51,209 nt of DNA, from the IMG/VR virus record IMGVR_UViG_3300027743_000035, positions 1 through 51,209 of that record; one strand, written 5' to 3'. Origin of the DNA: a virus. Positions 3,653 through 43,638 of the stretch are shown here, in pieces. Below the pieces are notes generated by a model, which worked only from the letters and a program-made list of their open reading frames with translations, ran no database searches and was not told where the DNA came from. Positions within the stretch are counted from its first letter, which is position 1; every line of letters starts with the position of its first letter. The translations under genes were made by a program, and so were the position numbers.

Positions 3653-6325
3653 CTATGGTTTAGGAGTTGTGCCACCGTAAGGGTTATGAGTATAAATAAA
3701 GCGACCTTCTTCTAAGCCAGCCCCATAAGTTTGACAATGGCATGAAATGTGGGCAACTAATCTAACACCCATATCTTCTACTTTAATTATTTCTTCCCAT
3801 CGGAAACCATCTTTATCTCGCACTGGCAATTTAAGGCCAAGTGCTTCTGGCGCTTTTTTACTAGACCTATCATCTAATGTCAAGGGCGTTGTAACAGAAC
3901 ATATTAATTCAATGCCGCTTTCACTAGTTAGCTTAACACATTTAGAGTGAGCAATTTTATTATTATTCACATCTATATATGTCAAGCCATCTAAACTGTC
4001 ATTTAGAATTTCAATTTGGGAGCCAATCATAACTTGATTAGCTCTAATACCGTTAGGCATAAAACTATTAACGTCAACACAATCGTCAACATAGCCACCG
4101 CCGCCACCGCCAGCGCCACTATCACCGCCAGAGCCAGCAGAGTTAGGCGAAGTGCCAGACGCCACAAAGTAACGATCAGTCCTTAGCAAATCATCGGGGT
4201 TTGTAGTATAAACATAAGGAACAGAGCCAACACTATCGCCATCTAAGCCGGGGTCGTCAACATATACAATCCAATAAGTAGAAAATGGCACAACAACACT
4301 ACCAGCGTTCCAACTAAGAGTAAGTAAAGTGCCACCTGCACCAGCGACTTTACGAACGTGAGCCGGAATATTTACAGTAACATTTGAAGCGCCCACAGTA
4401 TATGTAGGAGTTAAATTAGTTGAGTTTGAAATATTAACAATCTTTTGAGTGTTGTAAAATGTCGGGTCAGCAACACGGCCAGTAGTAGGACTAATTTTAG
4501 ATAATACAGTGGCGTTTGCTGTAACAGCGTTACCCAATATACCAGCCGTAAGACTTACCGCAACCCAATCACCGGGAACATTCTCACGGCTAACGTGCCG
4601 AGCTTCAATGTTATAAGCTGCACCTTTAAGTATGTCAACAATAATAACGCCATTCTGTGACGCAATTCTAGGCACTGGCGCAAAGTAAGTCCAAAGACTT
4701 GCAGTAGTTAGTTTGTGACGAACCTCTGTATGTTTAACGCGCACTGGCGGGTCTGTCCATGTAACCGACATTGCATCTTTAATCGCGGCTGGCGAGCCAA
4801 CACTAATACTAATGTTAGTTACAGTAAAGTTATTGACAGGATATTTAGTTAGGTTGTCGCGCTTAACACCAGTGCCAGTAGTAAAGGCATTAGCAACTGT
4901 GCCAGCGCCCCAAATAGAAGCATGAATTTCTTTAAGCAACATTGAAACGCCACCATAAGGGTCAATTTCATGCCGCCAAACTCTAAACAATTTAACCCAA
5001 CCAAACCTGTCGCTAGTATAGCGCACAACCGAGTAGGCTTGAGCTTGCATAGCCTTCATTTTCCATGAAGCTGTAAACTCGCCCTGATATTGGCCGGAAT
5101 TTAATTTAAGTCTAGCTAGACGTTGTGCCAGCACATGACTTAATACTTGTGGAAAATCCTGAGTGCGCCTAGATTTAAAGCCAAGGTTTGCTTCATAAAC
5201 ACTATCGCGCACAGCCGGATAAGCGAACGGCTGATATAATGTATTGACTGAAGGATTAATAAATTTACCAATTACTGAATTAAACTGCTCGCTCATTCCT
5301 TTCCATTCCAGCCAGCGAACAGTGCTATCTTCAGTTACATCATCGTCAGTTAATTCAACAGCAATTTGTGCCGTATCATCAACATTTGCATAATAACTCC
5401 ACAATCCACCGGGGTCTAGCAACCGGCCAATCAAACCATCGCAAGTAATTTTATCTTCATTACTTGTGTGTTCATCATCTGTTGACAACAACAAGTCAGT
5501 ATAGTAGCCAGCTACTTCACAAGCATTGGCACCAGCGATGAAAGTATTAAAGTTAATATCTTCAGGCGAAATACCCCGCCCACACATTAGCATCCATTCG
5601 CCAGTTTGGACATTTTGAACGCGCCAGCCAAGTAAATACCAAAGCGCCTGTAGTGCATTGTTACGGCCTATAGGCTGGCTATTGCCATCAAGTGTTGCAT
5701 AAGCCCATGTTGTCTGATCGTCGGCCCTGTGAGTGCCAGAGCCGCCCCTAGTGCTATCTCTACGCGGGTCATATACTAAAGCGCCTTCGCATACTTGGGT
5801 ATAGCGGCTAGGAACGCCATCGGGTAACTTTTCTTCATCAACTAACCAAGCATACTTTACATGAGCAACGCCAGTAAAAACGCTTGTGCTAGTCCAAAGT
5901 GTTCCACCGCCAGCACTTAATGCAGTATCACCCGGCACACCTAGTTTAGTTGTGCGAGAAAGTAAACCCACATATTTAGTTTGAACAGCGCCCGCCGCAC
6001 TTATAGCCAAGTCAGTTTCAATATAAAGCTCCTGAAAGCTTTGTATTCTGTGACCAGCTACAGCAAGCACTTCATCGAAATTAGTTTGAGCCGTTCCCCA
6101 TACTTCCCAAAAGCGAACGTCAAGAGGCGCAGCTATTTTACCAAACATTATCTTTCGTGCAGTTTCAGGGTCAAGGCTCTTATTTAAATTATTTACATTC
6201 TTAGAAGGTGGCGCTGCCTTCTTACCACCAAATCCAAAGACACCGCCGACAATTTTAGTGACAAAGCCGACAACGCCTTTGACAACCTTAACGGCTGCTT
6301 TAAATATTTTCTTTACGAAACCCAT
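3653..6325 (-). CDS. Tail tip / central fibre protein (lambda gpJ-like)
   Basis: An 890-residue protein at the distal end of the tail operon. The N-terminus is basic and hydrophobic (MGFVKKIFKAAVKVVKGVVG) with a Gly-rich repeat region, followed by the large tip domain seen in gpJ-type proteins. A second, beta-sandwich-rich half contains fibronectin-like stretches (MSVTWTDPPVRVKHTEVR). A Gly/Ser linker near residue 735 precedes a C-terminal domain likely to contact the receptor. The order TMP, two distal proteins, DUF6950-like, J matches siphophage tail tips. Its start overlaps the previous gene by 13 nt. It is the likely host-range determinant. Confidence 0.85.
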   Translation of the reverse strand: MGFVKKIFKAAVKVVKGVVGFVTKIVGGVFGFGGKKAAPPSKNVNNLNKSLDPETARKIMFGKIAAPLDVRFWEVWGTAQTNFDEVLAVAGHRIQSFQELYIETDLAISAAGAVQTKYVGLLSRTTKLGVPGDTALSAGGGTLWTSTSVFTGVAHVKYAWLVDEEKLPDGVPSRYTQVCEGALVYDPRRDSTRGGSGTHRADDQTTWAYATLDGNSQPIGRNNALQALWYLLGWRVQNVQTGEWMLMCGRGISPEDINFNTFIAGANACEVAGYYTDLLLSTDDEHTSNEDKITCDGLIGRLLDPGGLWSYYANVDDTAQIAVELTDDDVTEDSTVRWLEWKGMSEQFNSVIGKFINPSVNTLYQPFAYPAVRDSVYEANLGFKSRRTQDFPQVLSHVLAQRLARLKLNSGQYQGEFTASWKMKAMQAQAYSVVRYTSDRFGWVKLFRVWRHEIDPYGGVSMLLKEIHASIWGAGTVANAFTTGTGVKRDNLTKYPVNNFTVTNISISVGSPAAIKDAMSVTWTDPPVRVKHTEVRHKLTTASLWTYFAPVPRIASQNGVIIVDILKGAAYNIEARHVSRENVPGDWVAVSLTAGILGNAVTANATVLSKISPTTGRVADPTFYNTQKIVNISNSTNLTPTYTVGASNVTVNIPAHVRKVAGAGGTLLTLSWNAGSVVVPFSTYWIVYVDDPGLDGDSVGSVPYVYTTNPDDLLRTDRYFVASGTSPNSAGSGGDSGAGGGGGGYVDDCVDVNSFMPNGIRANQVMIGSQIEILNDSLDGLTYIDVNNNKIAHSKCVKLTSESGIELICSVTTPLTLDDRSSKKAPEALGLKLPVRDKDGFRWEEIIKVEDMGVRLVAHISCHCQTYGAGLEEGRFIYTHNPYGGTTPKP

Positions 6326-17981: not shown

Positions 17982-19025
17982 CTAGCGCCTTTTTGCCTTC
18001 AACTCCGATAGCGTTAATGGGCGTCCATTCCCGTCAACCAAATCTTTTAAAGTAATTTTACCGGCTCGCCACAGATCAGCGCGACCTTTACCTAACATTT
18101 CATCCTGATATGATTGGGGTTTTCTTTTAAGAAAGCCATCAAAGGTTAAGTCGGCTGAAACTGGCCCTTCATCGCTAGCACGAGTTGTCATTTTAAATTC
18201 AGGTATATTCAGGCCCATTTCCTTAAATGTTTTAGTAATAGGCACTTCAACAGACCGGCAATTAAAGTGACGCGGCACTCCATTATTATAAGGCTTTTTC
18301 TTCTTGCCTATTGGTTTAAAATCCATATCCCATTGACACTCTGAATAAGCAATACAAACTAAACTTGTATGACTATCTAGAGTTGACACTTGCTGAATAC
18401 CTGTTATAACATCTGTATTAGCTTTAAAGGTTTCTCGCCTTGCGTCATTAGCAACATTTTGAACTGACGTTTGAACCAATGTGGCAGCGTTCTTACGAGC
18501 GCCATCCATTATACCTATTTCGCCGCCTTTGCCCACAATTCTATTAATAATCTGTTGGTTTGTTTCGCCAGACTGTAAACCCATCCTGACTTGCTGGCTG
18601 AATTTAAATTGTAAATCCTCACTTTGCCCGCGCCACCAATCGGCAGTAGGAGCGCCAAACAGCATAACGTCAGAATTAAGAGATTTAAAATAATGATCTG
18701 TGGGCAGATATAATGCGTCAATTCCTAACGCTACGCCAATACCATACCGCATATCATTGGCAACATACTTGGCTAGTTGCTCATACTCAAATGATTTAAA
18801 TATCTCTCTATACTTGCGGTCAATCACCTTGCCGGTTTGTTGCAAGAAAGTTTCAACCCTGCGCCGCTGGCGTTCTGTCACAGCTTCAGCCGCTAACAGG
18901 CTAACCAATTCCTTTTCTAATTCAACTAGAAACTCATAGGTTTGGTGGCGTTGACCAGCCGCGTAGCGAAACACTAGTAAGGCGTTCTCTAATACTTCAT
19001 CAAATATATCTACATATACTGGCAT
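17982..19025 (-). CDS. Minor head protein (SPP1 gp7 / Mu gpF-like)
   Basis: A 347-residue protein with the conserved C-terminal block ending in PRHFNCRSVEVP (HFNCR motif) preceded by a conserved CIAYSECQWD segment, typical of the SPP1 gp7/Mu F-like head morphogenesis family. Members associate with the portal and enter the prohead in few copies. The start overlaps the preceding small gene. The N-terminal 100 residues are helical. Confidence 0.85.
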   Translation of the reverse strand: MPVYVDIFDEVLENALLVFRYAAGQRHQTYEFLVELEKELVSLLAAEAVTERQRRRVETFLQQTGKVIDRKYREIFKSFEYEQLAKYVANDMRYGIGVALGIDALYLPTDHYFKSLNSDVMLFGAPTADWWRGQSEDLQFKFSQQVRMGLQSGETNQQIINRIVGKGGEIGIMDGARKNAATLVQTSVQNVANDARRETFKANTDVITGIQQVSTLDSHTSLVCIAYSECQWDMDFKPIGKKKKPYNNGVPRHFNCRSVEVPITKTFKEMGLNIPEFKMTTRASDEGPVSADLTFDGFLKRKPQSYQDEMLGKGRADLWRAGKITLKDLVDGNGRPLTLSELKAKRR

Positions 19026-19348
19026 TAAGCTTCCGATTTATCTATAATTGCCACCCTAAAACTTTCATCATCTTCAAGGGCATTTGCTGTAGTAATGTGA
19101 CAAGTGCAAACATAAGCTCTGCCAACTTCCCCGCCACTTACTTCAATAAATGCTCTAGTATCTGTATAACCTTGATTGTGAATAGTTAAACCATCCTCAA
19201 CTGTCCAAAGTATAGCGTCTATAACATCAGCATCTATAAGCCAAAACTTCCACTCAATTGCATAATCTTTTCTGGCTTCAGGGTCTTTTTCAATATAATA
19301 CCCTTGTTCGTCTTTAACGAAACCTTCAGGCGGTGGAGCAGTTGCCAT
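19025..19348 (-). CDS. Fibre-adaptor-like small structural protein
   Basis: A 107-residue protein with an acidic start (VKDEQGYYIEKDPEARKDY) followed by IEWKFWLIDADVID and a beta-rich end. Proteins of this shape recur beside fibre genes in phages and are sometimes annotated as fibre adaptors. It sits 3 nt after the repeat fibre gene and overlaps the minor head gene start, so it may anchor that fibre to the virion. The name is tentative. Confidence 0.5.
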   Translation of the reverse strand: MATAPPPEGFVKDEQGYYIEKDPEARKDYAIEWKFWLIDADVIDAILWTVEDGLTIHNQGYTDTRAFIEVSGGEVGRAYVCTCHITTANALEDDESFRVAIIDKSEA

Positions 19349-19351
19349 AAA

Positions 19352-22300
19352 TCACCTAACAGTTATGGTTCGATTTTCAAACGGAATAATAAGCACTCTG
19401 TTTTCTTCAACAGGAATGATTAGCGGTTCTGGCTCAACTGTCAATACCCTATTTTCAAACGGAATAATCAATGCTCGTTCTGGCGGGGTATTTAATAAAC
19501 CACCACTTTCAGCAAAACTAATCTCTGGCGCATAAGTAGAAACGCCTAGCGTAATTAACTGATCAACATAACCCAAACCAGCTAAAGTTATTGCTGGCAG
19601 ATTTGCAGTAATATTTGTAGTAACAAGATCAAATGCGCCACTACCAAGTCCAACAATAGTAATTTCTGGCGGGAATGTTGACAGATTAAGCGTAGCTAGA
19701 CTATTCTTTTGGCCTAGGGTGGCTAATTCTATCGCCGCTGGCGTGGTTTCTAGCGCCTCTGAAGCTAGATCGTGCTGCTGGCCTAGCGCGGCACTGGCGA
19801 GCGCCGGGGCCGCTGTCTGAAGCCCTAGAGAAGCGATGTTATGAGTTTGGCCGATAGAGACAAGTGAAATAGCCGGAACGCCGCTAACAACAGGTAAAGT
19901 AGAAGCGCCAGATGTTGCTGATAATGATGATAGACTAATAGCCGGTATATCAGTTGCTATACCTAGTGAAATAAAGTCAGCCCTACTAAGTAAGGTTGGT
20001 TGACTAATAACAGGTATAGGTGTTGTTATATTTGTAGTGCTAAAATTAGCTGTGCTAGTAATAGCAGCAATAGTTACTACAGAAGCCGATGTAGCTAAAT
20101 TAGCAGAAGTTAACTTATGAGTTTGACCAAGGCTAGGTAGCGAAATAACAGGTGGATTAGTTGCAACAATTAACGGGTCAAGTCCAACAGTTGACCCCAT
20201 GCCAGTTTTAGAAATAACGGCAGCGGCAGTTTCAACAGGAATTGTAGTAATATTATGAGTTTGAGCAATAGCCGGTGCGCTTAAGAAAGGCGCAGTAGTA
20301 GCTACAGCCAAAGCAGTTAATACACCAAATACCACCATTGCAGCTTGAGCAATAGCCGGAATTGGAGTATTAAGATTAGCCGCGCTTATATTGTGTTTTT
20401 GTCCAATAGCCGCCGATGTAATAGCCGGTGGAGTAGTGGTAACTGAATTTGCAGTTAAATTAGCTATTGATACAATTGATGCAGTTGATATAGCAGGTGC
20501 CGATGTTCCCACATTGATTGTAGCAATATTATGCTTTTGGCCGAGTGTGGGCAACGATACAGCCGGGGCCGATGTTACAATATTTATTGAGCTTAATAAT
20601 GCTTTACTAGTGAAAACCGACAGGCTAATTGCCGGTGCCGATGTTACTATATTTGTTGAAGCTAAGTTAGTTGCCAACAAAGCTAGAGCAGATTGTGAAA
20701 TGACGGGAACAGGAGTTGCTATATTTATTGTATTTAGAGCAACAGTTTTGTTAAATACAGCTTGTGATATAACAGGGATAGGAGTTGTTATATCAAATGT
20801 AGCCAGATTATGTTTTTGTCCAACAGTTACCGCATTTATTAACGGAGCCGAAGTAGTGATATTTATATTAGAAAGGCTATGTTTTTGGCTTATTGTTGGC
20901 GCTGTAATTGCTGGCGCTGAAGTAGCTAGATTTGTTGAAGCTAATACATGGCTTTGACCAACTGTAACAATACTAACGGCTGGCGCAGTAGTGGCAAGAT
21001 TTAAATTAAGTAAGGCGTGTGTCTGGCCGAGCGCCGCCGCACTGATCGCCGGGGCAGGAGTAGTTATATTAAGAGCAGTAAAATTATATGCTACAATTTG
21101 ACCAGCAGCAGCCAGAGTAATTTCAGGAACATATGCAACAGTAACTTGCTTTAAAACTCTAAAATAATCTACTTCAGCAAAACTACTAGAATTACCACCT
21201 AATGAAATGCTATCTGTTGCGTTACTATCTCTAGTATGAATAGCATCATAAATTTTAAAACCATCATTAGGGGTTTCACTAGTGCTTGTTATAGTATATA
21301 ATACTTGATCGCCAAGTCTAATAGTAATATTGGCTGTGCCGGGAGCCGCAACCTTACGCGCTTTAAATTGAACTTTAACACTTTCGCCAGCTACACCGCC
21401 TGAATTTTGTGAAATACCACCATTAGCAACACTACAAGTAAATCCGTAAACACCAGCAGTTATATAAGGTGCAGTAGCGCCACCAGTGCGAACACTAGTT
21501 GGCGTCCAACCTACAGGAGCCGCGCCAGCGCCATCTAACGGCGCATCCATTTCAGGATTAGTGTGAGTTTCTTGCCAAACTTGAAATGAGCTAGAAACAT
21601 CTTGGGTAACTAAACCATGTGCTGTAGTAATAGCCGCTTGACTAATTGAAGGCGCACTAGTTGTTATATTAGTAGAAGTTAAAGCATCAGCGGGTGGGTC
21701 GTCATTCCAAACTACAATATTATAGGCAACCCAATCTTCAGTTGCACGAGTAAATACGCCGGGATTTTCAGCAGCAGCGTTTGCAAAACCATTTATTGTT
21801 TTATCAGCACTACCAATAGTGCAACCATTAGCAGCATTGCTAATAGTGCTAACTTGATGATTAGCATAACCGCTTGGCGCAGCAGTTGATGAAGTTATAG
21901 TATCGCCAGCAAAAAAGACATTAAAAAGAGCATCTACAGCGGCACCAGTAGCATTACTTATACTCGGTGGGTCAGGATTAGTTGAAGAACCTTTTGCCGG
22001 TGTAGGATAAGCTAAATTTATTACTTTACCAGTGCTAGGTCGTATTCTAAGAGCTTGAACAACAATAGCTTCAGAAACACTTAAATTTATTGTTAAAGCC
22101 GGAATAGTATTAGCAGTTGTGACAATAAATCTAGCAAAAGCAGCTTTACAAGCATTTGTATTATCTGCTACTTGACTTGGTATAAGCCAACCGTCAGCCG
22201 CCGATGTTCCACCTAAACTTAAAGTTGGGTTGCCATCAGTAGCAATATATATTATAATTACATCGTTAGGTAATGCGCCGCTTGCCAGCGTAGCCAAACT

Positions 22301-22369
22301 AGGGGTATAAGCGGTCGTCCCGGCATTACCAGCTATGGCAGTCCATAAATTTCTAGTTGGCGCAACCAC
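19352..22369 (-). CDS. Large repeat-built virion fibre protein
   Basis: A 1005-residue protein, GTG start preceded by AAAGG. Domain order: an N-terminal beta-sandwich region (1-230), one copy of a 23-residue repeat (232-254), an inserted jelly-roll-like domain (about 255-408, with ESVKVQFKARKV and EVDYFRVLKQV), about 24 tandem 23-residue repeats (about 409-955), and a C-terminal segment with the motif IIPFENR repeated. The repeat consensus is roughly TNIxTxAPxISxxxIGQKHxLxT. Its location among head genes, next to an adaptor-like gene, suggests a head fibre, though a tail fibre is possible. Receptor or surface binding is inferred. Confidence 0.75.
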   Translation of the reverse strand: MVAPTRNLWTAIAGNAGTTAYTPSLATLASGALPNDVIIIYIATDGNPTLSLGGTSAADGWLIPSQVADNTNACKAAFARFIVTTANTIPALTINLSVSEAIVVQALRIRPSTGKVINLAYPTPAKGSSTNPDPPSISNATGAAVDALFNVFFAGDTITSSTAAPSGYANHQVSTISNAANGCTIGSADKTINGFANAAAENPGVFTRATEDWVAYNIVVWNDDPPADALTSTNITTSAPSISQAAITTAHGLVTQDVSSSFQVWQETHTNPEMDAPLDGAGAAPVGWTPTSVRTGGATAPYITAGVYGFTCSVANGGISQNSGGVAGESVKVQFKARKVAAPGTANITIRLGDQVLYTITSTSETPNDGFKIYDAIHTRDSNATDSISLGGNSSSFAEVDYFRVLKQVTVAYVPEITLAAAGQIVAYNFTALNITTPAPAISAAALGQTHALLNLNLATTAPAVSIVTVGQSHVLASTNLATSAPAITAPTISQKHSLSNINITTSAPLINAVTVGQKHNLATFDITTPIPVISQAVFNKTVALNTINIATPVPVISQSALALLATNLASTNIVTSAPAISLSVFTSKALLSSINIVTSAPAVSLPTLGQKHNIATINVGTSAPAISTASIVSIANLTANSVTTTPPAITSAAIGQKHNISAANLNTPIPAIAQAAMVVFGVLTALAVATTAPFLSAPAIAQTHNITTIPVETAAAVISKTGMGSTVGLDPLIVATNPPVISLPSLGQTHKLTSANLATSASVVTIAAITSTANFSTTNITTPIPVISQPTLLSRADFISLGIATDIPAISLSSLSATSGASTLPVVSGVPAISLVSIGQTHNIASLGLQTAAPALASAALGQQHDLASEALETTPAAIELATLGQKNSLATLNLSTFPPEITIVGLGSGAFDLVTTNITANLPAITLAGLGYVDQLITLGVSTYAPEISFAESGGLLNTPPERALIIPFENRVLTVEPEPLIIPVEENRVLIIPFENRTITVR
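19504..21142 (-). repeat. Array of about 24 coding 69-bp repeats (23 residues)
   Basis: The translated repeats align with almost constant 23-residue spacing; two copies are 24. Core positions are P (8), I/V (10), S/T (11) and often GQ-K/T-H (16-19). DNA copies are divergent, so the repeat is old or under selection for protein shape rather than recently expanded. A beta-solenoid or rod-like fold is likely but unproven. Confidence 0.85.
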
Positions 22370-22384
22370 CGATTAGCCTTTATA

Positions 22385-22418
22385 ATAAAAAAGGGCGAGC
22401 CAAACAGCCCGCCCTTTT
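22385..22418 (-). terminator. Intrinsic terminator upstream of the repeat fibre gene
   Basis: A stem-loop AAGGGCGAGC/GCCCGCCCTT with one mismatch and a 6-nt loop, followed on the minus strand by six or more T then ATT. It ends the transcript of the preceding small head gene and would lower expression of the fibre gene. Confidence 0.82.
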
Positions 22419-22434
22419 AAACAGCGGGCGATTA

Positions 22435-22821
22435 TTAGCCAGCTAGATTTGGCAGACGAACAGTTTGTGCCGTTAGCGTAAAGATGTTACCGCTAGTAAC
22501 GCCCTGTGAGGCGCTAAGAGCTTGTGCAACCTCTAGCCGTGACGCGGTGCTATTCACTACGCTATTGTGGCTAGCCGTGCCTGTAGCCGTTACAGAGCCA
22601 TCGGTAACAGCCGCGCTAACAACTTGGCGTCCACTTGGCGAACCAGCAGCAATAGCAGCCGGATATACGTTACCAGCGCCAAAAACTTTGTTACCAAGCG
22701 CCACAGTTGATGTAGCTGCTGTGTAAGTAGCCGGTTCGGAGCTATTAATATAAACCCCGGTTGCGCCAGCTTTCAAGGCCGCTAGGCCGTTGTCAAGTGT
22801 ATTATTGTCAAGATACGGCAT
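22435..22821 (-). CDS. Small head-associated protein, decoration-like
   Basis: A 128-residue protein starting MPYLDNNTLDNGLAALKAGA. The N-terminal block, the TSTVALGNKVFGAG motif and the C-terminal SQGVTSGNIFTLTAQTV match a family of small proteins found beside portal and capsid genes in many phages. It has a strong ribosome binding site (AAAGGGAAG) and its own terminator, consistent with high-copy expression. A decoration or fibre-base role is inferred. Confidence 0.6.
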   Translation of the reverse strand: MPYLDNNTLDNGLAALKAGATGVYINSSEPATYTAATSTVALGNKVFGAGNVYPAAIAAGSPSGRQVVSAAVTDGSVTATGTASHNSVVNSTASRLEVAQALSASQGVTSGNIFTLTAQTVRLPNLAG

Positions 22822-22846
22822 TACACTTCCCTTTCTAGCCTAAAGC

Positions 22847-23293
22847 CTATTCAGCTTGGTTTTCACAATATTCAACAGCTTCTTCTTCGGTTGCCCGCGT
22901 TCCGACTTCTTCCCATTTATAATCATAAGCTACACGATTATCGCCATGCTCGCCAGCTTCAGCAGCTTCACGCACATGACTAGGAACAAAGTGTGGGTTA
23001 GGTTCCCCGTCAATTTCTTCATCTTCAGAGTTAATCGGAGTTTTCTTATAGATATAGAAAACCCGCTTACCTTCAACAGTATTACCGCCCCAATCAAGGT
23101 AAGTAAATTCTTTACCAATTGCAATTACTTTACCGTCAGCATCGCGCAGACCCGGCCTATAATGTGGAGCCGTATTTTCATCATCTAGCAATTCTTCAGT
23201 TGCCATATCAGTAATACGGGGTGGGCCGGGTTCAATGCGATAGTTGCCCACATCAATAATGGCGGTATTTTCTTCATGCCGAATTACAGTCAT
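22847..23293 (-). CDS. Hypothetical acidic protein downstream of portal
   Basis: A 148-residue acidic protein directly after the portal gene (1-nt gap). It contains FTYLDWGGNTVEGKRVFYIY and a Glu-rich C-terminus. No family was recognised. The position suggests a head-morphogenesis accessory protein. Confidence 0.65.
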   Translation of the reverse strand: MTVIRHEENTAIIDVGNYRIEPGPPRITDMATEELLDDENTAPHYRPGLRDADGKVIAIGKEFTYLDWGGNTVEGKRVFYIYKKTPINSEDEEIDGEPNPHFVPSHVREAAEAGEHGDNRVAYDYKWEEVGTRATEEEAVEYCENQAE

Positions 23294-24811
23294 TTACTTA
23301 TCCTTTTCCTCTATTGGTTTTTCGGTTCCTTTGTCTTTAGGTTCGGGTATAGGTTTATCCTCACCTATTGGCGCTGCAACTGGCGGTGGCATTGCCGGGG
23401 CCGCGTCAATCCTTGCTTGTTCATCTTCAAAGCTAATTTCAGCATCAATTAGATCGCCACGCTTCATTAGATCAAAGAAGCTTTCAGACGACAATTGAGC
23501 CGCTTGAACAGCCGCAAGTAGTGAAGTAAGAGCCTGTGGAGACATTGGAAATGGCATGAAGTCACGATTAATGTCAAATTTAATATTATCTTCTGTAACA
23601 GGAACACCAGCCCATTCAGCGAATACCTTTAGGGCTTTAGTTAATCCTTCAGAAACGGCAACAGCAATTGCTGCTAAAATAGAGTTTTCGCCAGCATGGC
23701 GCATAGCAACAGTTTCAGCCGCTTCAACACCTGTTTTCTCTGGCGTCAGCATTTTAGCGCCGATAGCCGCCATTTGAGCTTCTTTTTTATCTAAATTGTC
23801 TGTTAGAGCTTTAAGCCCCTGCCCATTAAATTCTAAATAGCCAACTTCAGCACCAGCGGGAAGCATCCAAGCTGTCATTGACCCAATATATAATTTAGGC
23901 CAAATAGGCGAGCCATCAGCCGCGAAGCTCTGTGGAGTTGCGCCAGCAATCCAAGGTGTAGGAAGGCCGGTCATGTGGCAACCATGTTCAAAGTCAGCAC
24001 TAACTTGAAAGTGCTTTATATTTAAATCTACCAAGTCAATCAAAACCGGCTCTGATAATTCAGGTTCGCCACCGTCAGGGCCAATGAAATAAAATGGTAT
24101 ATACTGCATCGGCTGGCCGTTCATAGTTGGGTAAATATCCCAACCAATTTGGCTCTCGTTTTCTTCTATAAAGCGCCGCACTCTATAGTGACCATTAATT
24201 AAATCTAACACACGAATAACGGCAAACTTTTTATCTTTAAATTCAGTTTCAACTTCAGTGTGTTGTTCCCAAAGCCGCACTTGTGTTAGAGTATAATGGT
24301 TATTAATAAATTCATAGCGCCAGTTAATTATTTGTTCCGCTTTATACATAACCATTGACGGACGCAAACCCATGACTTCAGCCTGTGCCATTGTAATAGC
24401 TGTGCCATCGGGATTTGTAATATTACCATTTGGATAATCAACTAAAACGCCAACCCGACTAACCATTATATCTTCTAATGCAACATCTTGAGCGAAGTTG
24501 TCAAAACTAACGCCAGACATAGTTACATCGTCAAGTAGTTTTTGTAATTTATCTGGATATGTTTTAGCTGGCGGCTTACGAAACATCATGCCGATGAAAG
24601 CGGCCATTGTGCGCCAAGTTGCATTAAAAAATGGCGTTCTCTCTTGACGCTTCTTATATTCAGGGTCAGTTTCTTCAGCCAGTTTAGCTAAATAAAGAGT
24701 AGTGCCAAAGTAAATATTATCTTGACCAGCTACAACATCACGACACCGACGCCATTTTTGCGAGAAAAGATCGTAGTCTGAGTGCCGGGTTTTGACGCCA
24801 TTTGCTGCCAT
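23294..24811 (-). CDS. Portal protein (DUF4055 type)
   Basis: A 505-residue protein following terminase with a TAATG stop/start overlap. The blocks WRRCRDVVAGQD, RTPFFNATWRTMAAFIGMMF and the QPMQYIPFYFIGPDG region fit the DUF4055 portal family. Portal rings form the DNA entry vertex and bind terminase. The C-terminus is a disordered Pro/Lys/Glu tail (KPIPEPKDKGTEKPIEEKDK). Confidence 0.88.
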   Translation of the reverse strand: MAANGVKTRHSDYDLFSQKWRRCRDVVAGQDNIYFGTTLYLAKLAEETDPEYKKRQERTPFFNATWRTMAAFIGMMFRKPPAKTYPDKLQKLLDDVTMSGVSFDNFAQDVALEDIMVSRVGVLVDYPNGNITNPDGTAITMAQAEVMGLRPSMVMYKAEQIINWRYEFINNHYTLTQVRLWEQHTEVETEFKDKKFAVIRVLDLINGHYRVRRFIEENESQIGWDIYPTMNGQPMQYIPFYFIGPDGGEPELSEPVLIDLVDLNIKHFQVSADFEHGCHMTGLPTPWIAGATPQSFAADGSPIWPKLYIGSMTAWMLPAGAEVGYLEFNGQGLKALTDNLDKKEAQMAAIGAKMLTPEKTGVEAAETVAMRHAGENSILAAIAVAVSEGLTKALKVFAEWAGVPVTEDNIKFDINRDFMPFPMSPQALTSLLAAVQAAQLSSESFFDLMKRGDLIDAEISFEDEQARIDAAPAMPPPVAAPIGEDKPIPEPKDKGTEKPIEEKDK

Positions 24812-41133: not shown

Positions 41134-41217
41134 ACCCCTATAGTGGTGTCCCCTGTAGTGGCTACCTAGTATAGTGGCGACCAAATATATTTACCCCTAT
41201 AGTGTAGTGGCTACCTA
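41134..41217. repeat. Cluster of TAGTGG-type direct repeats beside the primase gene
   Basis: GTAGTGGCTACCTA occurs twice (41155-41168 and 41204-41217), ACCCCTATAGTG twice (41134-41145 and 41193-41204), and related TATAGTGG words in between (for example 41170-41177). GTAG-TGG-CTAC is also a small inverted repeat. Iteron-like spacing next to the primase gene suggests a replication or regulatory site. Confidence 0.55.
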
Positions 41218-43638
41218 AATTAAATCGCCGGAAAATCTGTGGGGATTTGCAATCACATATGCTTTTGGTTTGCTACCAAAATCCAATTGCATTTGATGGC
41301 CGGGAATTTCTCTTAAATCATCTGCATCTAGCAGCGTTCGGATTGACCGCTTAATTGAATATGATGCACCCATTCGATCATTCTTGAAACAAGCCACAGA
41401 GATTAGTTTGCGAGATATAATGGTTTCTGTTATAATATGCTTTTCAAACATATCAATGCGACCACCATATTTAATATACTTTTCACGATCATCAAGCAAT
41501 TCTCTTATTGCTTTAATAACACTGTGGAGTTGCTTACCCTCACCTGTAGCGGCTAACGCGCCAACCTGTCCTGTTTCAAACTTAGCAATTAGTTTATATG
41601 TTTGATTGCAAACCATATCCGTTGCCCACATGAAATGCTCAAGGGTTACAACAGGATTTAAATAATTCTCGCCAATTGCCCGAAGGCTTGCCAGCTTAAG
41701 AGCCTTAAGGTGCGCCCTGTTCCACAATTGTCTAACGACTTCGCCATTGCTTTGATTGATTAAATCGGTTGTCCACACATCAAATTCATCTTGCAAAGCA
41801 TCAGCTTCAGGAGTTAGCTCAACCCGATGGACTGCGCGTTGGTGCATGACTTTCAAACAATGTGCTGCCAAGTCAGACAAACGAGTTATCAAATCTAATG
41901 AGGGATAAACGGTTTCAGCAGCTTTATTTAAATATCGTCTATCCGATTTATTTTCAAATACCAAAAATCTAGGCAACAATCCATCGCCAATCATACTTTC
42001 ATCTAATGCTTCATAAAAAGCTTCAGGCACACTTTCACCAAATAATGTTAGTGAGGGTGAATAAATTGGGTCAGTATTCTTTTCGCGTTCGGAGTAGGCC
42101 ATTGGGTCAAAAATATCGTTATGACCTGATTTAGAATACATTTGCAACAGCACACGCTGCAAGCCTATCAAATGGGTATTGGCGTTCGGCGCTGCCATTT
42201 CTTTCATCTTCTTGCCAAACTCGCCAACAATAGATAAGATGCAAGGCTTCCCGTTAGCCATCCACTTAATCAGGCCAGCCGATGAAACTAATTCACCCGG
42301 CCCGCGAAAGTCAATGATACTTGGACAGCTAGGCAATATAGCTTGTTGTAACTTAGCCGTTCCACTTGATACAGCATCCTTACCAATGCCTGTTTGCGCC
42401 AGCATAAGTATGTATTGATTTAATCCAGCACCAGAGCTAGTGTTATAAGCACGGCCACAGATGCCAGATAGAAACGCTATTGCGCCAGCTAAGGCAACAT
42501 CATAAGATGGTCTAGGAGCCGCATCATAAAAGAATTGAGCCACTTCGCCAAGCAAGCCGGAAGGAAACTGGTTGACAAGCTGCCGCGTTCCCGGCACTAT
42601 GCCCCTTCCCTCACCGTCTTTGCCGATGGGGACGAGGGACGCGGTGGCGGTCGATGCACTCTCCATGCTTGGCCTCTTACCCGGTTCGGACGTAGAGATA
42701 GTTCCCGCCGCCGCGTTACCATTTACTTCACCAAGACTATTAAAAGCATCATTTACCCAGCCCGCATAATCAATTGGCGGAAGCTGCCGGTCAAATGACT
42801 TTTCAACCATATACATTACATAATCGTCACGCTGCGCTTTATCGCGCTGGCCTAACATTGATGTTCTAAATAGCCGAATGATCTGTGGGATATGTTTAGT
42901 ATAAAAAGCGATTATGTCAACTAGGGCAAAATCACCTTCTGATTGAGTTGGGTAAAGGTCTTGCCAATGACCTTCCCATAATTGTTTAAACTTATCCCCA
43001 TTGACAGCTTCAGAAGCCATTTTAATAATAGCTGCATCTTCAGCTTTTTGTTCAGGGTCAGCATCAACAACGTATTGTTTAACATCGCCACCCATTTTAT
43101 TATATAAATCGTCTAACTCTGGCTGTGCATCCCTAATTGGATTAGGGTTAAGAACATCGCCAGTCATTGTAAAGAAACGGCCTTGCGGGTATAATTCCAT
43201 AGAATTACGCCGCCTACCTGTGGGAACATTACCTTTAACAATTATATGAACGCCATTCCTACTTGGCGAGCGTTCAGTATAACTATTTAATTTCATATAT
43301 ACTTGTTGTTGGTTCTGATAGGCTTCTAGGTCGCCGTGAACATCATCAAGATCAATGCCACAATAAGGGTCATCTTTACTGAAAACAAATCCGATGCCAG
43401 TAAAGCCAGTATCCATTATAGGGGTTTCAGGGTCAACCGCCTCAAAGCAAGCAATTGGAGCAGCCAGAGCTTCCTCAAAGCTACCCCATGTATTACTTTT
43501 AATTACACTTGCTTTACCTGAGTTGGGACGCGGAGTATAAGGCACTTTAGTAGGCTTAAGCATGGGCGGGCGAAATTCAAGCCGCCAAACCACCCATTGA
43601 TTATAGGCCCGCAATTCGGCAGGGATATTGCCAAACAT
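41215..43638 (-). CDS. PrimPol-helicase fusion
   Basis: An 807-residue protein. Residues 1-160 match the archaeo-eukaryotic primase type found in NrS-1-like phages: PAELRAYNQWVVWR, catalytic GIDLDD (D96, D98) and SPSRNGVHIIVKG (H131). Residues about 215-285 resemble a primase C-terminal helical module. After a linker (about 305-350) a DUF3987-like helicase carries Walker A AQTGIGKDA (414-422) and arginine-rich C-terminal motifs. It probably primes and unwinds the replication fork. The linker DNA (about 42580-42720) is much more GC-rich than the rest of the gene. Confidence 0.85.
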   Translation of the reverse strand: MFGNIPAELRAYNQWVVWRLEFRPPMLKPTKVPYTPRPNSGKASVIKSNTWGSFEEALAAPIACFEAVDPETPIMDTGFTGIGFVFSKDDPYCGIDLDDVHGDLEAYQNQQQVYMKLNSYTERSPSRNGVHIIVKGNVPTGRRRNSMELYPQGRFFTMTGDVLNPNPIRDAQPELDDLYNKMGGDVKQYVVDADPEQKAEDAAIIKMASEAVNGDKFKQLWEGHWQDLYPTQSEGDFALVDIIAFYTKHIPQIIRLFRTSMLGQRDKAQRDDYVMYMVEKSFDRQLPPIDYAGWVNDAFNSLGEVNGNAAAGTISTSEPGKRPSMESASTATASLVPIGKDGEGRGIVPGTRQLVNQFPSGLLGEVAQFFYDAAPRPSYDVALAGAIAFLSGICGRAYNTSSGAGLNQYILMLAQTGIGKDAVSSGTAKLQQAILPSCPSIIDFRGPGELVSSAGLIKWMANGKPCILSIVGEFGKKMKEMAAPNANTHLIGLQRVLLQMYSKSGHNDIFDPMAYSEREKNTDPIYSPSLTLFGESVPEAFYEALDESMIGDGLLPRFLVFENKSDRRYLNKAAETVYPSLDLITRLSDLAAHCLKVMHQRAVHRVELTPEADALQDEFDVWTTDLINQSNGEVVRQLWNRAHLKALKLASLRAIGENYLNPVVTLEHFMWATDMVCNQTYKLIAKFETGQVGALAATGEGKQLHSVIKAIRELLDDREKYIKYGGRIDMFEKHIITETIISRKLISVACFKNDRMGASYSIKRSIRTLLDADDLREIPGHQMQLDFGSKPKAYVIANPHRFSGDLI

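Follow-up and report, generated by a model that had tools for sequence, protein, structure and literature searches.

The open reading frame at positions 19352-22369 of the window (the whole stretch of DNA analyzed, whose 51,209 bases make up one IMG/VR virus record) encodes a protein with 23-residue tandem repeats and a C-terminal tail of nine-residue units, and it forms a three-gene cassette with the genes for a candidate bead protein (g128) and a Gp77-type fiber-tail adaptor. Across related loci, the tail is statistically coupled with Gp77, and the 23-residue repeats are coupled with g128. The product is probably a neck- or collar-anchored fiber, with its C-terminus on the adaptor, its shaft passing through bead dimers, and its heads outermost. 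A preliminary description, made from the sequence alone, had already called the protein a fiber; that reading is supported and can now be tied to an anchor, namely the Gp77 gene, the putative docking tail, and the bead gene.

Organization of the fiber gene and its surroundings

The fiber open reading frame lies on the minus strand, starts with GTG, and encodes 1005 aa. Its parts and the flanking genes are as follows.

17982-19025, minus strand: MuF-like head morphogenesis protein (phrog_241, E 3e-88), one flank of the insertion
19025-19348, minus strand: Gp77-type fiber-tail adaptor gene (PF23148), 107 aa, 3 bases after the fiber gene
19355-19483, minus strand: putative C-terminal docking tail, residues 963-1005, about five nine-residue ExRxYxVxx units (tail score)
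19484-19621, minus strand: two decayed repeats, residues 917-962
19625-21076, minus strand: main array, 21 copies of the 23-residue repeat, residues 432-915 (autocorrelation, matrix scan, and relatives)
21077-21607, minus strand: second non-repeat domain, residues 255-431, carbohydrate-binding module (CBM)- or jelly-roll-like by eye only (no library match)
21608-21676, minus strand: isolated repeat, residues 232-254
21677-22369, minus strand: N-terminal head, residues 1-231, proposed to be distal and host-facing (from the heads of relatives)
22435-22821, minus strand: g128, 128 aa, a member of the bead/whisker family whose gene directly precedes that of the fiber (family profile)
22847-23293, minus strand: 148-aa protein encoded between the portal and g128 genes, within the insertion (no known relative)
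23294-24811, minus strand: portal protein (PF13264, E 7.8e-42)

When residues 415-970 were compared with themselves, the mean BLOSUM62 score was 1.14 at lag 23, 0.89 at lag 46, and 0.47 at lag 69, and the maximum of 200 shuffles was -0.10, far below the lag-23 signal. A position-matrix scan recovered 21 strong repeats (26-47 bits each), the isolated repeat (25.4 bits, against a shuffle maximum of 12.5), and decayed repeats at residues 917 (10.6 bits) and 940 (4.8 bits), with a uniform spacing of 23 save for one of 24 (551 to 575). The tandem repeat noticed in the preliminary description is thus real: the self-alignment it had suggested returned a period of 23 with no shuffle close, the separate copy at residues 232-254 was recovered, and its estimate of about 25 copies compares with about 24 counted here (21 strong, 1 isolated, and 2 decayed). 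The consensus is approximately [ST]-[LI]-N-[ILV]-x-T-x-A-P-[AV]-I-S-x-x-x-[LI]-x-Q-x-x-x-L-x, in which T6, P9, and hydrophobic residues at 4, 11, and 16 are constant and position 22 is hydrophobic in 86% of repeats. Of the positions previously described as conserved (P, I, and GQ-x-H), the complete GQxH occurs in only 8/21 repeats (QxH in 10/21). Cys, Trp, and Tyr are absent from the 484 residues of the 21-repeat array, and Arg occurs once. Where different copies share a residue, the codon is also shared in 40.7% of cases, compared to 40.5% expected from codon usage alone; synonymous sites are therefore saturated, with the duplication history erased there, and the array is old, in agreement with the long divergence at the DNA level proposed previously.

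No profile in Pfam, PHROGs, or NCBIfam covers the repeat, and the whole protein had no match above threshold in phage records (tblastn), IMG/VR (seeds), PDB, PHROGs, NCBIfam, or Pfam; searches with an alignment of the repeat block, or with the C-terminal tail alone as query, likewise returned nothing. The BspA-type leucine-rich repeat (PF13306, LRR_5) was rejected as an identification, scoring 22.9 bits with the full protein and 26.1 bits with the array alone, below the gathering threshold of 27.7.

The N-terminal head had no Pfam match and nothing was found for it in the phage search. In a three-way alignment it was 27-28% identical to the heads of Octadecabacter Antarctic DB virus 2 gp11 and of an IMG/VR locus (L088), both of which likewise stand before 23-residue repeats, and a single BLASTP comparison with gp11 gave an E-value of 6e-5. 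For the second non-repeat domain, residues 255-425 had no Pfam match at E 1, and hence none to a CBM or galactose-binding profile, a result of sequence methods that leaves such a fold possible; the domain also had no PDB match at E 10 and none in viral contigs. The non-repeat stretch from which an inserted jelly-roll or carbohydrate-binding domain had been proposed is therefore present, but no library identifies it. The proposal that this domain splits off the first turn of the shaft is one reading; because the non-repeat domains of other family members lie N-terminal to the array, a pair of heads with a single repeat as the linker between them is an equally good one.

Distribution of the repeat family

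Relatives were recruited with a degenerate DNA pattern derived from the repeat, which had zero chance matches in shuffled window sequence. It recovered 28 stretches from IMG/VR (loci are labeled L with a number here), about 15 of them distinct and carrying tandem 22-23-residue repeats of the kind found in the window, with up to 33 copies (L093) and the family consensus A-x-G-I-T-T-G-A-P-V-L-G-x-P-x-L-G-Q-x-H-x-L-T. The same pattern found 45 stretches in GTDB genomes, but no tandem array of the repeat was among them, and they were discarded as chance matches. Heads vary across the family, including DNRLRE/CBM96-like (L097), LamG-like by eye (L087), and window-type (DB virus 2, L088) domains.

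The two relatives from cultured phages, DB virus 2 gp11 and Roseobacter phage CRP-6 gp57, have the same kind of repeats as the window, each of their genomes also encodes a g128 relative, and DB virus 2 additionally shares the N-terminal head; however, neither has the ExR tail or a PF23148 match, and the CRP-6 repeats are strongly diverged. DB virus 2 gp11 (L166:3323-4849, MW805364.1) is annotated as "ribonuclease E", although it consists of a head and a 23-residue repeat fiber.

The C-termini of L083, L090, and L091 lack the ExR tail and share another stretch (RAEL...), perhaps a second docking tag. Downstream of its capsid gene, a terminase relative (L009:7369-8394) encodes a 22-residue repeat protein of a different kind; its record has no PF23148 match, and this may be a further variant of anchoring. 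L097 and L103 have near-identical fiber genes that differ in the reading frame of the array, and L103 is apparently frameshifted.

Coupling of the C-terminal tail with a Gp77-type adaptor

The window fiber ends in ...PERALIIPFENRVLTVEPEPLIIPVEENRVLIIPFENRTITVR, five units that scored 81.5 compared to 23.8 at the 99th percentile of 761 control ORFs; this tail was among those used to train the matrix, and the independent test is that of the other loci described below. The adjacent adaptor gene matched PF23148 at 71.1 bits (E 1.2e-19, cut-off 27). A similar nine-residue unit (approximately E-x-R-T-Y-x-V-x-x) also ends the repeat proteins of L087, L097, L105, L093, and L082, and a PF23148 Gp77 gene lies close by in the window and in each of these loci. 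No PF23148 Gp77 gene was found with the untailed proteins of L083, L088, L091, L095, L096, DB virus 2, and CRP-6, and L090 has a weak PF23148 match elsewhere in its record. Overall, PF23148 was present in 9/21 repeat-family records versus 1/30 terminase-matched records. Since several repeat proteins (L083, L088, L091, L095, L166, and L167) lack both the tail and a neighboring Gp77, the repeat can also attach in another way.

The association was then assessed in 80 IMG/VR loci found by Gp77 sequences alone. By a strict regular expression, the tail was present in a close upstream gene in 30/76 Gp77 loci, versus 14/685 other ORFs; by a matrix trained only on repeat-family tails, with its threshold set at the 99th percentile of the 761 control ORFs, 20/62 loci exceeded the threshold (Fisher P 2.9e-18), and weaker tails were recognizable by inspection in about 20 further Gp77 loci. 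ExR units also occur in the gene before Gp77 of phages BcepIL02, Itty13, and DSL-LC06, and two genes before it in BcepMigl. Tails contain from 2 to 5 units, which rules out a fixed number of three. On this co-occurrence, docking of the tail on the Gp77 adaptor is well supported, and the two would be in physical contact. In one locus (L099:473-2162), a degenerate tail (PPRQTYIHPHRQSISID) stands just upstream of a sub-threshold Gp77 match, and tail and adaptor may co-diverge.

A periodic shaft (z>6) was found in 40 of the 43 tailed genes, with a period of 19-23 in 39, compared to 1/354 control ORFs from terminase-matched loci, all 300 residues or longer (P 3e-48), and 13/320 other ORFs within Gp77 loci; some Gp77 loci are near-duplicates, so P values overstate independence, but the contrast is large enough to survive. 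Given the range of 19-23 among tailed genes, the 23-residue repeat is one version of a general shaft design.

The g128 family and gene neighborhood

The family profile of g128 matched a neck chain of phage Sf14 (9c39_K, PDB 9C39, 110 aa) at E 9.5e-5 and, in the related phage Sf17, gp131, encoded two genes after the portal, at 91%. Relatives of g128 matched phrog_240 ("head protein") at 7e-7 to 4e-8; g128 of the window itself had no PHROG match. Alignment of the g128 family with that of BcepIL02 gp55 gave a remote similarity (hhalign, 52% probability, E 1.4e-4), and the two sub-families are likely, if not provably, of common descent. Members of the g128 family occur in about 15/18 distinct records with 23-residue repeats, either adjoining the repeat gene at a distance of 2-56 bases (L082, L084, L087, L088, L097, L099, and L105) or elsewhere in the record (L085, L090, L091, L096, L101, DB virus 2, and CRP-6), and the only repeat records without one are short fragments or stretches (L083, L093, L095, and L107). 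None were found in the whole records of 12 terminase-matched relatives or in 80 terminase loci as fetched.

In two of the closest terminase relatives (L002 and L003, 67-68% identity), the portal and MuF genes are directly consecutive, whereas four genes (19025-23293) intervene in the window; the four-gene module is therefore accessory. Its 148-aa protein is acidic, was without relatives in the libraries and the fetched loci, and did not align to Sf17 gp132 when considered as a gp30 relative. Elsewhere in the window, an 890-aa product (3653-6325) at the far end of the tail operon matched the phrog_5616 tail fiber, which gives the phage at least one further fiber-like protein, and an 807-aa product (41215-43638) with DUF3987 and a sub-threshold match to the NrS-1 polymerase helix bundle is likely a primase-helicase.

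Comparison with characterized phages

The gene order of the window (candidate bead, repeat rope ending in ExR units, Gp77 adaptor) is also that of BcepIL02 gp55-gp56-gp57: gp55 is a phrog_240 homolog of GP4 chain 8jou_a (2e-48), gp56 has 20-residue repeats and an ExR tail, and gp57 is a Gp77 matching 8jou_D (3e-20). By eye, gp56 contains about ten or eleven strand-like repeats, compared to the ten bead chains of PDB 8JOU. The window adaptor matches 8jou_D weakly in direct comparison, and both it and GP4 Gp77 belong to the PF23148 family. The systems differ in that the BcepIL02 rope has 285 aa, approximately 20-residue repeats, and no long heads, compared to 1005 aa, 23-residue repeats, and two non-repeat domains in the window; in addition, GP4 and the Bcep22-like phages are podophages, whereas the window is a siphophage-type genome, and the bead similarity is remote. 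The GP4 tail reportedly has a 15-fold adaptor ring with five chain-like fibers, each of five dimers joined by a rope. Support for this layout is confined to the chain counts of PDB 8JOU (10 chains of 8jou_a and 3 of 8jou_D), a mention of a 15:12 mismatch in the collar (PMC10925440), and the description of chain 8JOU_g as a dimer that forms a fibril and links the adhesin to the nozzle collar (PMC13243795).

In Sf14, the neck whiskers consist of gp30 and gp31 dimers, and one gp30 chain threads through two whiskers (PMC11821841); the match of the g128 family to 9C39_K relates the window to this structure, although no long repeat fiber and no annotated adaptor of this type occur in the corresponding stretch. 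Sf17 gp132, the positional counterpart of Sf14 gp30, was rejected as a Gp77 relative, having no match. The "extra structural module" of LSH1 (gp34-gp36) is similarly made up of three co-occurring genes, encoding an adhesin with a poorly predicted C-terminal part, an 8JOU_g-like dimer, and an Ig-like protein (PMC13243795), but its head is a lyase-like beta-helix, unlike the heads of the window fiber. In phage JC1, gp53 and gp55, which by position and length are the bead and adaptor homologs, were detected by mass spectrometry of purified virions (PMC9144972, Table 6); gp54, the rope homolog, is absent from the listed virion proteome (PMC9144972).

Proposed architecture and alternatives

In the proposed arrangement, the Gp77-type adaptor would form a complete or partial ring at the neck, on which the nine-residue ExRxYxVxx units would dock; the 23-residue repeat shaft would lead outward, probably threaded through g128 dimers like beads on a rope; and the variable N-terminal domains would be outermost, where they probably bind the host surface. 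Threading is suggested by analogy with the dimers of GP4 and Sf14, and a neck location by the GP4, Sf14, and JC1 relatives. Because the conserved end is the C-terminus, the fiber would be oriented opposite to most tail fibers. Counting against this arrangement are the remoteness of the match between g128 and BcepIL02 gp55, the absence of JC1 gp54 from the listed proteome, and the repeat proteins that have no tail and no neighboring Gp77; moreover, a gene located beside those for portal and capsid need not encode a virion component.

An AlphaFold2 model of 11 repeat blocks had a mean pLDDT of 54.7 and a pTM of 0.42, with two strands per repeat at low confidence, and the full-length fiber reached a mean pLDDT of 39.4. 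Foldseek gave no match below E 0.85, and the weak matches were mostly beta-helices. These predictions only suggest a beta-rich shaft that may be a solenoid, so that the rod or solenoid of the preliminary description keeps a beta-rich, low-confidence model in its favor but has neither a confident coil per repeat nor a significant Foldseek match. The shaft could alternatively be a free-standing beta-solenoid rod, still tail-anchored to Gp77 but with one coil per repeat and self-supporting without the bead. Such a rod would accommodate the hydrophobic residues at 4, 11, 16, and mostly 22, with small or polar residues between them, as a four-sided coil, and it is in line with the two predicted strands, the beta-helices among the weak Foldseek matches, and the sub-threshold score (26.1 of 27.7 bits) against the 23-residue LRR_5. 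However, a pLDDT of 54.7 is too low to count, no fold match is significant, and the near-constant company of g128 would be left unexplained; we consider this rod somewhat unlikely.

Quite unlikely, in our assessment, is a capsid decoration or head fiber held on the capsid surface via g128 instead of at the neck. The genes do sit between the portal and major capsid genes, PHROGs names the g128 relatives "head protein", and phage 7-7-1 has dimeric capsid decoration proteins together with unidentified curly capsid fibers (PMC12796354); however, the adaptor family is named after the GP4 fiber-tail adaptor, and the closest matching solved structures are neck or collar complexes. An ordinary trimeric tail fiber, with its N-terminus on the baseplate and a receptor-binding C-terminus, would suit a long repetitive protein with lectin-like domains but is highly improbable and disfavored, as conservation lies at the C-terminus and variability at the N-terminus, and the phrog_5616 tail fiber is encoded by another gene.

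Implications

The C-terminal tail and the gene cassette, both absent from the preliminary description, carry most of the functional information on the neck-anchored fiber proposed here. More tentatively, and with rather less confidence than for the window fiber itself, such proteins could represent a widespread unnamed class of neck fibers, in which any outward domain is joined to a 19-23-residue rope and an ExR tag read by a Gp77 ring, with beads matched to the repeat type (the g128 family for 23-residue repeats). No description of this general rule for tail, adaptor, and shaft was found in the libraries or open-access paper text searched. If it is correct, repeat number would set bead number and fiber length, and phages would exchange adhesins by means of the ExR tag, which would act as a portable anchor. 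The proposal also offers a gene for the strand that strings bead dimers in GP4-like phages, and the contact between fiber and adaptor is directly testable in laboratory phages. As a sequence rule, an ExR tail beside a Gp77 gene with a shaft period of 19-23 finds host-facing fibers where nothing is annotated.
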